Shown here one piece after another: positions 1,501 through 4,761 of a stretch of 12,158 nt of DNA. The number at the start of each line of letters is the position of its first letter. Positions within the stretch are counted from its first letter, which is position 1. Position numbers and translations under genes: made by a program. Source of the stretch: Tannerella sp. (GTDB lineage: Bacteria > Bacteroidota > Bacteroidia > Bacteroidales > Tannerellaceae). The stretch is taken from NCBI GenBank assembly GCA_031279875.1, contig JAITHS010000151.1:1-12158 (forward strand), given 5' to 3'. The notes under the pieces were generated by a model. The model made no database searches. It saw only the letters and a program-made list of their open reading frames with translations, and was not told where the DNA came from.

Positions 1501-4500
1501 ATGAAAAAAAAACCGGTTAAACTTTTATTTTTACTTTTCTGTACCTTGTCGCTGTCGGCGGAACAGATGAAACACGAAACCCTTGCAGCGGTTTTAAACC
1601 CTGCAAGGGTTGAGGTAGTCATTCCAGCAGAACCACTTGCAGGGGTTTTAAACCCTGCAAGGGTTGAGGTAGTCATTCCAGCAGAACCACTTGCAGGGGT
1701 TTTAAACCCTGCAAGGGTTGAGGCGTTACAACAACGCAAGTCTATTACCGGCGCAGTATCCGATGAGACGGGCGAACCGTTGCCGGGTGCTTCGGTGCTG
1801 GTCAAAGGCACTCCGCGCGGTGTTATCGCAGACGCTGACGGTACGTTTAAAATTGATGTGTCGACTGATGACGTACTCGAAATTTCTTACATCGGATACG
1901 AGCCGTTACAGGTCAAAGTTGGCAGTCAGACGTACATCAGCATCAAACTCGAACCGAAGAAAAACGAGTTGGACGAAGTAACCGTCGTAGCCTTCGGTAA
2001 GCAAAAGAAAGAATCTATCGTAGGCGCCATTACGACGGTACGTCCGTCGGACTTGAAAGTACCGAGCAGCAACCTCACAACGTCTCTGGCAGGCAGAGTA
2101 GCAGGTTTGATTTCTTATCAGCGCAGCGGCGAGCCGGGCATGGACAACGCAGACTTCTTCGTGCGTGGCGTAACTACTTTCGGCTACAAGCAAGACCCGC
2201 TAATACTTATCGACGGTATTGAACTGACGACTACCGACCTTGCGCGGTTACAGGTTGACGACATCGCCAGTTTCAGTATTATGAAAGACGCCACAGCCAC
2301 AGCGCTTTACGGCGCACGCGGCGCGAACGGCGTTATCCTCGTTACGACCAAGCAAGGTTCGGAAGGCAGAGCCAAACTGTCGGTAAGAATTGAAAACTCG
2401 TTCAGTTCGCCTACCGACAACGTTGAATTAGCCGATCCGGTAACATTCATGCGGCTGGAAAACGAAGCCGTATTGACACGCGACCCGCTTGGCATTACTC
2501 GTTATTCCGACGCCAAAATAGCACGTACAGCTAACGGTGAAGATCCGTTAGCATATCCGGCTAACGATTGGAGGCAACTGATGTTTAAGAATTATGCCGC
2601 CAATCAGCGCGTCAATCTTAGTGTGAGCGGCGGCGGTACTATTGCCCGATATTACGTGGCCGCCTCATACTCAAAGGATAACGGAATGCTCAAAGTTGAC
2701 AAACGCAACAACTTCAACAGCAATATTGATTTGAGAAAATACACGCTGCGTTCAAACGTCAATATCAACATAACTAAAAGCACCGAGTTAGTAGTGCGTT
2801 TGAGCGGCAGTTTTGACGATTATTCCGGTCCTATCGACGGCGGCAAGGAGATGTATAACAAGGTTATGCACGCCAATCCGGTGCTGTTTCCGGCATACTT
2901 TCCGGTTACGGACAGTTACCGCTATATCAATCATATTTTGTTCGGCAATTACGAGCAGAGCGGCTTTATGCGCAATCCGTATGCCGATATGGTGCGTGGC
3001 TACAAAGAATACACCCGTTCACAGATGATAGCCCAGTTTGAAGCCAAACAAAACCTTGAAGCCATTACTAAAGGTTTGAGTTTGAGGGCAATGTTTAATA
3101 CTACGCGCAACGCTTATTTTGATGTTACACGCGCCTACAACCCGTTTTATTACAGTTTCGCAGGCTACGATGTTATGACCGGTGAAAGGATGCTGACCGT
3201 CTTAAACGAAGACACCGGAACAGAATATCTCGGTTACGCGGAAGGTGTTAAAACCATTACTTCGGATGTTTATTTTGAATCGGCACTTGATTATAACCGC
3301 GAGTTTGACAGGCACGGCGTCAGCGGTATGCTCGTTTTTATAGCCAAAAACACTATCGAAGCCAATGCCGGCGGCTTGCATCAGTCGCTTCCGCACCGCA
3401 ATCTCGGACTGTCGGGGCGCGCTACATACGCCTACGACAAACGCTATTTTACCGAGTTAAACTTCGGCTATAACGGCTCGGAAAGATTTCATAAAAAACA
3501 TCGTTTCGGGTTCTTCCCCGCAATAGGATTAGGATGGAGCATCTCTAACGAACAGTTTTTTGAGCCGATGAAAGCCATTGTTACGAACCTCAAACTGAGA
3601 GGTACATACGGATTAGTAGGCAACGATGCCATTGGCGGGCCGAGTGACCGTTTCTTTTATCTCTCTCAGGTCAACATGAACGACGGCGGCAAAGCTGCAT
3701 CTTTCGGCGAAAACCAAAATACATACTTGCGTAACGGCATCACGGTCAATAACTATTCAAACGAAAACATTACGTGGGAAGTGTCAAAAAAACAAAACTA
3801 TGCAGTAGAAATCGGGCTATGGGATAAAATCAACATCATAGCGGAATATTTCCGTGATTATCGCGAGAAAATCCTTATGACGCGGTCTTATATCCCAAAT
3901 ACTATGGGGCTATCGTCAACGGCTTCAATCCGTGCCAATTCGGGCGAAGCGTCAAGTCGCGGTACGGATATTTCGCTCGACTACAATCAGGCGTGGGGCA
4001 GTCATACATGGTTAAGCATCAGAGGTAATTTCACTTATGCCACAAACCGTTACGAGGTCTATGAAGAACCTATATACAAAGAGCCGTGGCGTACGCGGAT
4101 AGGTTATTCGATAGACCAGACGCGCGGCTATATCGCAGAAAAACTATTTATCGACGACGCAGAAGTTGCCAACTCGCCGCGACAGTTCGGCGATTATAAA
4201 GCCGGAGACATCAAATATACCGACGTCAACCGTGACGGCGTTATTACCGGCGCCGACATGGTGCCTATCGGCTACCCTACAAAACCTGAAATCGTTTATG
4301 GCTTCGGCTTCTCACTGGGATATAAAAACATTGATTTTTCTACATTCTTTCAAGGGCTTGCCAACGAATCGTTCTGGATAAGTTACGCTGCCACAGCGCC
4401 TTTTGTCAACGAAACGCAGATACTCAAACAATACGCCGACAGCCATTGGAGTGAAGACAACCGCAATGTTTATGCAATATGGCCGAGATTGAGTAACTAT

Positions 4501-4761
4501 CTGATATCAAACAACAACCAGACAAGTACATGGTTTATGCGCGACGGCTCATTCTTGCGTCTCAAACAGTTGGAGATAGGCTATACGCTACCGGATAATT
4601 TGCTCGCAAACATCAAAGCCTCAACATGCAGAATATATTTTAGCGGCACTAATCTGCTACTTTTCAGCCGATTTAAGATGTGGGACGTAGAGATGGGAGG
4701 CGAAGGTCTCGGCTATCCTATTCAGAAAACGCTTAATATTGGTCTTAACGTTAGTTTCTAA
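1501..4761 (+). CDS. susC: SusC/RagA-family TonB-dependent outer-membrane transporter with an in-frame repeat insertion
   Basis: This 1086-residue protein imports oligosaccharides across the outer membrane with energy from TonB. Residues 1-20 are a signal peptide (basic start, then LLFLLFCTLSLSA). Residues about 80-151 are a carboxypeptidase-regulatory-like domain (SITGAVSDETGEPLPGASV onward). A TonB-box-like segment, ELDEVTVVAFG, is at 156-166. The plug follows, with PLILIDGIE (233-241) and ATALYGARGANGVILVTTK (266-284). The remainder is the beta-barrel, ending in phenylalanine (NIGLNVSF) as expected for barrel assembly. The oddity is residues about 28-75: nearly three copies of an 18-residue unit (LAGVLNPARVEVVIPAEP) encoded by a palindromic 54-bp DNA repeat, placed between signal peptide and first domain, where family members normally pass almost directly into the domain. 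The frame stays open, so the gene looks functional. SusD follows after 13 bp, as usual for SusCD pairs. Confidence 0.96.
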   Translation: MKKKPVKLLFLLFCTLSLSAEQMKHETLAAVLNPARVEVVIPAEPLAGVLNPARVEVVIPAEPLAGVLNPARVEALQQRKSITGAVSDETGEPLPGASVLVKGTPRGVIADADGTFKIDVSTDDVLEISYIGYEPLQVKVGSQTYISIKLEPKKNELDEVTVVAFGKQKKESIVGAITTVRPSDLKVPSSNLTTSLAGRVAGLISYQRSGEPGMDNADFFVRGVTTFGYKQDPLILIDGIELTTTDLARLQVDDIASFSIMKDATATALYGARGANGVILVTTKQGSEGRAKLSVRIENSFSSPTDNVELADPVTFMRLENEAVLTRDPLGITRYSDAKIARTANGEDPLAYPANDWRQLMFKNYAANQRVNLSVSGGGTIARYYVAASYSKDNGMLKVDKRNNFNSNIDLRKYTLRSNVNINITKSTELVVRLSGSFDDYSGPIDGGKEMYNKVMHANPVLFPAYFPVTDSYRYINHILFGNYEQSGFMRNPYADMVRGYKEYTRSQMIAQFEAKQNLEAITKGLSLRAMFNTTRNAYFDVTRAYNPFYYSFAGYDVMTGERMLTVLNEDTGTEYLGYAEGVKTITSDVYFESALDYNREFDRHGVSGMLVFIAKNTIEANAGGLHQSLPHRNLGLSGRATYAYDKRYFTELNFGYNGSERFHKKHRFGFFPAIGLGWSISNEQFFEPMKAIVTNLKLRGTYGLVGNDAIGGPSDRFFYLSQVNMNDGGKAASFGENQNTYLRNGITVNNYSNENITWEVSKKQNYAVEIGLWDKINIIAEYFRDYREKILMTRSYIPNTMGLSSTASIRANSGEASSRGTDISLDYNQAWGSHTWLSIRGNFTYATNRYEVYEEPIYKEPWRTRIGYSIDQTRGYIAEKLFIDDAEVANSPRQFGDYKAGDIKYTDVNRDGVITGADMVPIGYPTKPEIVYGFGFSLGYKNIDFSTFFQGLANESFWISYAATAPFVNETQILKQYADSHWSEDNRNVYAIWPRLSNYLISNNNQTSTWFMRDGSFLRLKQLEIGYTLPDNLLANIKASTCRIYFSGTNLLLFSRFKMWDVEMGGEGLGYPIQKTLNIGLNVSF
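1578..1723 (+). repeat. Tandem 54-bp palindromic repeat inside susC (about 2.6 copies)
   Basis: Units begin at 1582, 1636 and 1690, a period of exactly 54 bp; the third is partial and ends near 1723. Units 1 and 2 differ at one base (CAGCGG against CAGGGG), which is the only difference I see. Each unit holds an inverted repeat with arms CTTGCAGGG and CCCTGCAAG around the 8-nt loop GTTTTAAA. In unit 1 the outer arms extend to AACCCTTGCAG (1578-1588) and CTGCAAGGGTT (1601-1611), a perfect 11-bp match. The rest of each unit is a 20-nt non-palindromic spacer (GTAGTCATTCCAGCAGAACC). The encoded unit is LAGVLNPARVEVVIPAEP. No reading frame of the repeat on the susC strand frame is interrupted because 54 is a multiple of three. 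The stems could also fold in the susC mRNA about 80-220 nt after its start codon. Confidence 0.95.

Follow-up and report, generated by a model that had tools for sequence, protein, structure and literature searches.

How did three DNA palindromes come to stand in tandem, and in frame, near the start of a gene for a SusC transporter, and does the peptide that they encode serve the protein? The question is raised by the window, the whole stretch of 12,158 nucleotides of Tannerella sp. that was analysed. The answer that we regard as very probable is that a REP-like element private to one species entered the SusC gene in frame and was then duplicated in tandem, the peptide being a passenger.

The array in the SusC gene

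The features of the window on which the argument turns are the following, all on the + strand.

1501..4761, +: SusC/RagA TonB-dependent transporter, open reading frame of 1086 aa (list of open reading frames; Pfam CarbopepD_reg_2 and Plug)
1501..1566, +: signal-peptide-like N-terminus, residues 1-22 (MKKKPVKLLFLLFCTLSLSAEQ), judged by eye from the translation
1578..1723, +: in-frame array of 2.7 tandem copies of a 54-bp unit, each unit encoding 18 residues (Tandem Repeats Finder, repeat search)
1578..1611, +: palindromic element, copy 1 (inverted repeat, DNA hairpin, two half-sites of the genome-wide family)
1612..1629, +: 18-base spacer separating copies 1 and 2, with GTAG at 1615-1618
1631..1665, +: palindromic element, copy 2 (inverted repeat, DNA hairpin, half-sites of the genome-wide family)
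1666..1683, +: 18-base spacer separating copies 2 and 3, with the same sequence as the spacer before it (sequence comparison)
1685..1719, +: palindromic element, copy 3, its palindrome equal to that of copy 2 (inverted repeat, hairpin, half-sites, sequence comparison)
1744..1986, +: CarboxypepD_reg-like domain, residues 82-162, immediately 3' of the insert (Pfam)
2008..2334, +: TonB-dependent receptor Plug domain, residues 170-278 (Pfam)

The protein has the order by which SusC/RagA transporters are recognised, a carboxypeptidase-like domain and then the Plug (Pfam). Its gene is flanked by the SusD gene and by a regulator with a LacI-type sugar-binding domain, whose LacI helix-turn-helix match of 20.5 bits lies below the Pfam cut-off of 27. 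SusD is followed by DUF4959/DUF5126/DUF5000 and DUF4998/DUF5013 proteins and by a heparinase II/III-like protein, and because of these neighbours the locus is, by the usual reading, part of a polysaccharide utilisation locus. The nearest SusC loci in a scan of relatives belong to Bacteroidales and other Bacteroidota, the first listed being that of a Tannerella sp. MAG with 68% identity in the best segment; the protein of the window itself is known from one contig only, the window's own.

Tandem Repeats Finder returned exactly 1578-1723 (period 54, 2.7 copies, 97% matches), and a repeat search placed the copies at 1576, 1630, and 1684, with identities to copy 1 of 94% and then 74%, copy 3 departing from copy 1 on the 3' side of its palindrome. 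As single-stranded DNA, the hairpins of copies 1 to 3 reach -15.1, -12.9, and -12.9 kcal/mol (z -7.7, -5.3, and -5.3), and for each copy 0 of 200 shuffles was as stable. The initial annotation had described 2.6 units of 54 bp with inverted repeats, encoding an 18-residue repeat between the signal peptide and the carboxypeptidase-like domain; this description stands, with 2.7 copies as assembled, three hairpins beyond their shuffles, and a frame that is the SusC reading frame of 1501-4761. It had also proposed that the array expanded after entry, and the internal comparison agrees with this: copies 2 and 3 match at all 38 palindrome bases and the two 18-base spacers match as well, the pattern expected of recent tandem duplication. 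Both spacers begin with GAGGTAG, which puts a GTAG four bases past copies 1 and 2, not past copy 3. Relating the spacer of the 54-bp unit to a common flank of the element was dropped as weak, a seven-letter core being all that is shared.

The mRNA would also be expected to fold: for the 276 nt around the array the energy is -98.6 kcal/mol (z -6.3), and none of 200 shuffles was as stable. This would suit a role at the RNA level, with hairpins that slow translation after the signal peptide or alter the stability of the susCD mRNA. We consider such a role rather unlikely, given that any palindrome within a gene would fold likewise, that most of the clusters inspected across the genome lie outside recognisable genes, and that nothing in the window reaches the gathering threshold of any Rfam family.

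A search with the N-terminal region of SusC found 74 proteins (E up to 0.001, 4559 candidates). The alignment used to compare N-terminal lengths covered 57 homologues, 12 others being excluded for an annotated STN domain and 4 for a different architecture. In the window, 83 residues precede the conserved Gly, versus 13-63 in 49 of the 57 homologues; the remaining eight have 128-150 and, apparently, an extra N-terminal domain. The expectation that SusC proteins pass from signal peptide to first domain in a few residues does not always hold: two relatives among Tannerella MAGs (loci L151 and L114) carry long, non-palindromic linkers at the position of the insert. These long linkers indicate that the site tolerates length in general, in keeping with the earlier proposal of entry at a tolerated site, the N-terminal linker being variable in length among relatives. 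More than by its length alone, the insert is distinguished by its DNA origin.

A peptide conserved among SusC proteins was considered and rejected, since the protein of the window is the only one of the 74 that carries it at that place; orthologues in distant species sharing the peptide with non-palindromic DNA had been named at the outset as a finding that would overturn an origin from palindromic DNA. The sole other near-match to the repeat peptide, in protein P0051, is positioned after the first domain. Residues 1-78 of the SusC structure model, signal peptide included, have a pLDDT below 50 (protein mean 78.4), as have residues 242-279 of a sugar porter that also carries the element (mean 81.8), and the greater part of either protein is modelled with higher confidence, so that the insert is predicted to be unstructured in both proteins modelled. 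The predicted tryptic peptide of the SusC insert is VEVVIPAEPLAGVLNPAR.

Distribution of the palindrome

The genome searched is a 2.785-Mb draft of 410 contigs, 80% complete. The element is defined as a 35-bp consensus unit made of two imperfect half-palindromes around TTGCAG/CTGCAA, and four of the six reading frames of this unit have no stop codon. A gapped pattern found 274 + 303 = 577 half-sites; base composition, at an assumed GC of 0.45, predicts about 0.04, and the reversed pattern used as a control gave 0. One pattern for the full unit matches at 198 places, and among those listed the form most often seen is AACCGCTTGCAGGGTTTAAAACCACTGCAAGGGTT. In 60 other genomes (36 congeners and 24 of the same order), many of them incomplete drafts, 57 are without a half-site and three, all congeners, have one each. 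The initial annotation had called the palindrome dispersed and had proposed a search of this genome and of related ones; dispersed it is, and as far as the searched genomes show the family appears to be private to one species. A sequence common to the genus is ruled out by the same comparison (33 of the 36 congeners without a half-site, 3 with one each), and spread by viruses was rejected, as the palindrome had 0 matches in a viral contig collection.

In total, 167 clusters were inspected, each holding two or more half-sites, with as many as two mismatches allowed per half-site, and representing 166 loci and 464 of the 577 exact half-sites. The sample is non-random, being taken mostly in listing order, with one cluster (C390) included for its open frame and others from a separate listing. 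Where an open frame was shorter or did not convince, the cluster was put aside on inspection by eye alone. On these terms, 12 of the 167 clusters were assigned to recognisable genes or gene ends, and the remainder was judged by open frames and by eye. A scan for genes broken by the element found long frames on the same strand on both sides in 20 of 174 clusters, several of which are the known in-frame cases. The family thus has the general features of a REP: a palindrome of 20-40 bp, in more than 100 copies, mainly outside genes and often in arrays.

Several elements, on many contigs, lie within about 100 bases of a contig end; the copies may therefore interrupt the assembly, and the family may be larger than counted. 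A draft of this kind (410 contigs, 80% complete, some elements near contig ends) could also suggest that the array in SusC is an artefact, or a copy-number error, of metagenome assembly. This is very improbable, as the array stands in the interior of a 12-kb contig, the sequence of copy 1 differs from that of copies 2 and 3, and six further genes, each on a contig of its own, also carry in-frame insertions.

In-frame copies in other genes

Hundreds of dispersed copies, tandem arrays among them, are thus present in this genome, and copies stand in frame in the linkers, loops or termini of several genes. At least seven genes are hit internally: SusC and the first six of the genes that follow.

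L224 (G000:C157): FecR-1, in-frame internal insert (open frame and family search)
L309 (G000:C390): FecR-2, in-frame internal, four 63-bp units (open frame and family search)
L264: sugar porter, in-frame internal insert (Pfam match spans the insert)
L288: Gfo/Idh/MocA oxidoreductase with a lipoprotein-like start (by eye), in-frame internal, 21-bp steps
L274 (G000:C137): outer-membrane beta-barrel protein, in-frame internal, 96-bp step
L321: GNAT acetyltransferase, in-frame internal insert
L231 (C171): ThiD-type kinase, C-terminus extended by the element
L245 (G000:C198): sulfatase, C-terminus extended by the element
L192 (C281): BT_3928 family protein, C-terminus extended by the element

Two N-terminal cases (L249 and L016) both have an uncertain true start. 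In six of the seven internal cases, the sugar porter excepted, the Pfam match lies on one side of the insert only, and that of the beta-barrel protein (27.2 bits) is barely at its cut-off of 27. The beta-barrel gene also encodes low-complexity NEETRKQG repeats from a DNA repeat like GGAGACAAGG, and sequence similar to this repeat adjoins some elements outside recognised genes.

As judged from the alignments, the compared homologues lack the inserts or mostly keep those linkers short. The linker of FecR-1 has 71 residues, versus 0-22 in all 119 homologues listed (zero in three of these; 544 proteins found, the query counted), and both sides of its insert align. The segment of the sugar porter has 52 residues, versus 21-37 in all 120 homologues listed of the 8000 scored. 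For the Gfo/Idh protein, the start is readable in three of nine relatives, and these have a short linker behind the cysteine, from which the repeat is absent.

Of the distances from one half-site to the next, 20 of 21 in the five in-gene arrays are multiples of three, versus 61 of 125 elsewhere (Fisher p 3e-5), the lone exception being a spacing of 62 bp in the sugar porter. Counted per array, the figures are four of five in genes versus nine of 42 elsewhere (p 0.017). Terminal cases and single-unit inserts were set apart from this comparison (10 spacings, nine of them multiples of three). As evidence for in-frame tolerance, this codon-multiple spacing is given modest weight, because the in-gene arrays were partly recognised by their open frames and because spacings within an array are not independent.

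Hairpin inserts are bypassed in some mitochondrial genes, and the strong hairpins within the SusC coding sequence might recall them. That the insert is bypassed here rather than translated is hardly credible: the internal inserts keep a stop-free frame and nearly always codon-multiple spacings, and bypassing needs neither.

The inserts could, on the other hand, be adaptive, the number of units tuning how far the SusC N-terminal domain reaches or how flexible it is, and doing likewise for the linkers of FecR, porter, and lipoprotein. The attraction of this reading is that an envelope association seems likely for six of the seven internal cases, a raw count, and that the two FecR paralogues (L309 and L224) share one insertion site, the linker that precedes the membrane helix; the array steps of 54, 63, 21, 18, and 96 bp, codon multiples with one exception among the spacings, point the same way. 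We nevertheless judge it unlikely, for linkers are the best-tolerated place for any insertion and at least four reading registers occur among the in-gene copies, so that no peptide is conserved among them. A more far-reaching proposal is that in-frame palindromic minisatellites across the genome gain and lose codon-multiple steps, vary linker lengths between cells, and are selected as a length rheostat. It would cover SusC, the two FecRs, the sugar porter, the lipoprotein oxidoreductase, and the beta-barrel protein, and we give it little credence.

The preferred account, passenger DNA that became protein, would run as follows. A REP-like palindrome would have multiplied within one species, and one copy would have entered the SusC gene directly after the signal peptide. 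It may have survived there because the unit has stop codons in only two of its six frames and because the linker tolerates changes in length. Duplication in steps of 54 bp (18 codons) could then have occurred by slippage or unequal recombination, leaving a peptide that is predicted to be a disordered passenger. Any effect on transport would be nil or small, through linker length or through mRNA hairpins just past the start; the function of the SusC insert is probably nil, or an effect of linker length. The compared sequences include no precise empty SusC site from a sister strain. As the element is abundant in one species and nearly absent from 36 congeners, the insertions are probably young. 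This brings two long-standing questions within reach of a test: by what route REP-like DNA that has no transposase beside it spreads, and whether insertion in frame followed by tandem growth is a steady source of new linkers or a tolerated load only.

Known palindromic elements and the putative mover

In the available passages of PMC3733652, the REPs with intragenic cases, of the GTAG and CGTC super-families, are described as sequences of 20-40 bp in high copy, mostly intergenic and clustered or paired. Inside unrelated protein genes, their clusters can encode 43-82 residues, probably linkers or loops, and there are CGTC families without a dedicated transposase (PMC3733652). The element resembles these as a short palindrome in high copy, mostly outside genes and in some cases inside unrelated ones. 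It differs in that the end tags are missing from nearly all of 179 units: GTAG/CTAC stands within 6 bp of the unit end in four and CGTC/GACG in two, and within 10 bp of the unit the numbers are 14 and 6, respectively; CGTCA occurs within 25 bp on the 3' side in 52. The GTAG four bases past the palindromes of copies 1 and 2 of the window, which copy 3 is without, leans toward the GTAG REPs. The host, too, is different, being a Bacteroidales species: for Bacteroidetes, that part of the source mentions CGTC repeats but none that lies inside a gene (PMC3733652).

The initial annotation had offered the Rickettsia palindromic elements (RPE) as precedent. According to the portions of the sources at hand, these measure about 105-150 bp, occur as in-frame fusions with many unrelated protein genes and were neutral or of slight effect in one enzyme tested (PMC2229807, PMC10969869). 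The precedent is apt in that the element, too, is a palindrome lying in frame inside unrelated genes, with seven internal cases. It is less exclusive than was supposed, since the intragenic REPs are equally close on the part of PMC3733652 at hand, which also assigns the shorter RPE-4 and RPE-6 to the CGTC REPs. From the long RPE, which enter here by description only, the element differs in its unit of about 35 bp, its several registers, and its tandem growth within genes.

PARCELs, as presented in part of PMC2996958, are tandem amphipathic motifs of 25 residues with palindromic DNA, found in many membrane-targeted proteins and across taxa. The SusC insert is likewise a tandem in-frame repeat with palindromic DNA; its period is 18 residues, those of the other arrays are 21, 7, 6, and 32, and, unlike that partial description of PARCELs, the element is known from one species and is read in several frames. 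BrickBuilt, a MITE of Porphyromonas gingivalis, shares with the element tandem repeats (a minisatellite) in a member of the Bacteroidales; prokaryotic MITEs are almost exclusively intergenic according to PMC4596501, and in-gene copies, present here, are not mentioned for BrickBuilt in the passages of that paper at hand.

On its sequence, the element is classed as a REP in the general sense only, because the end tags of the super-families are missing from nearly all units and it has neither the length of the long RPE nor the PARCEL motif, and it appears to work like an intragenic REP or a Rickettsia element. Among the titles and abstract openings listed in searches of open-licence PMC papers, none describes an in-gene palindromic element in SusC or in a Bacteroidales species. 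With the present case, a Bacteroidales host and its transport and anti-sigma proteins join the short list of bacteria where dispersed palindromes become protein.

As in REP/REPIN-RAYT systems, a REP-associated tyrosine transposase (RAYT) gene is present in this genome, once (L193, C98:145-681; NF047646, 102.1 bits, cut-off 80). Acting in trans, a REP-type tyrosine transposase is the leading candidate for the putative mover. The contig of the gene (C98) contains no half-site of the element in its 6.6 kb, the gene starting 145 bases from the contig end; its downstream flank has, by eye, palindromes of a different sequence. Y1_Tnp was found in five of the 18 congeners searched (G003, G009, G012, G014, and G018), each with at most one half-site of the palindrome family.

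A second dispersed repeat, CGTCATTGCGAGGAACGAAGCAATC, accompanies the element in FecR-1 (L224) and other loci, with 49 exact copies in the fetched loci; its 12-base start is absent from the window. The insert of FecR-1 is a composite that includes the second repeat, beginning with CGTCATTGCGAG, a 12-mer present in 126 copies in the fetched loci, and a variant of CGTCATTGCGAGGAACGAAGCAATC lies inside it. A check of this insert for a target-site duplication found CGTCAT at both ends, letters that also belong to the second repeat. Like the REPs tagged with CGTC, CGTCATTGCGAGGAACGAAGCAATC starts with these four letters.
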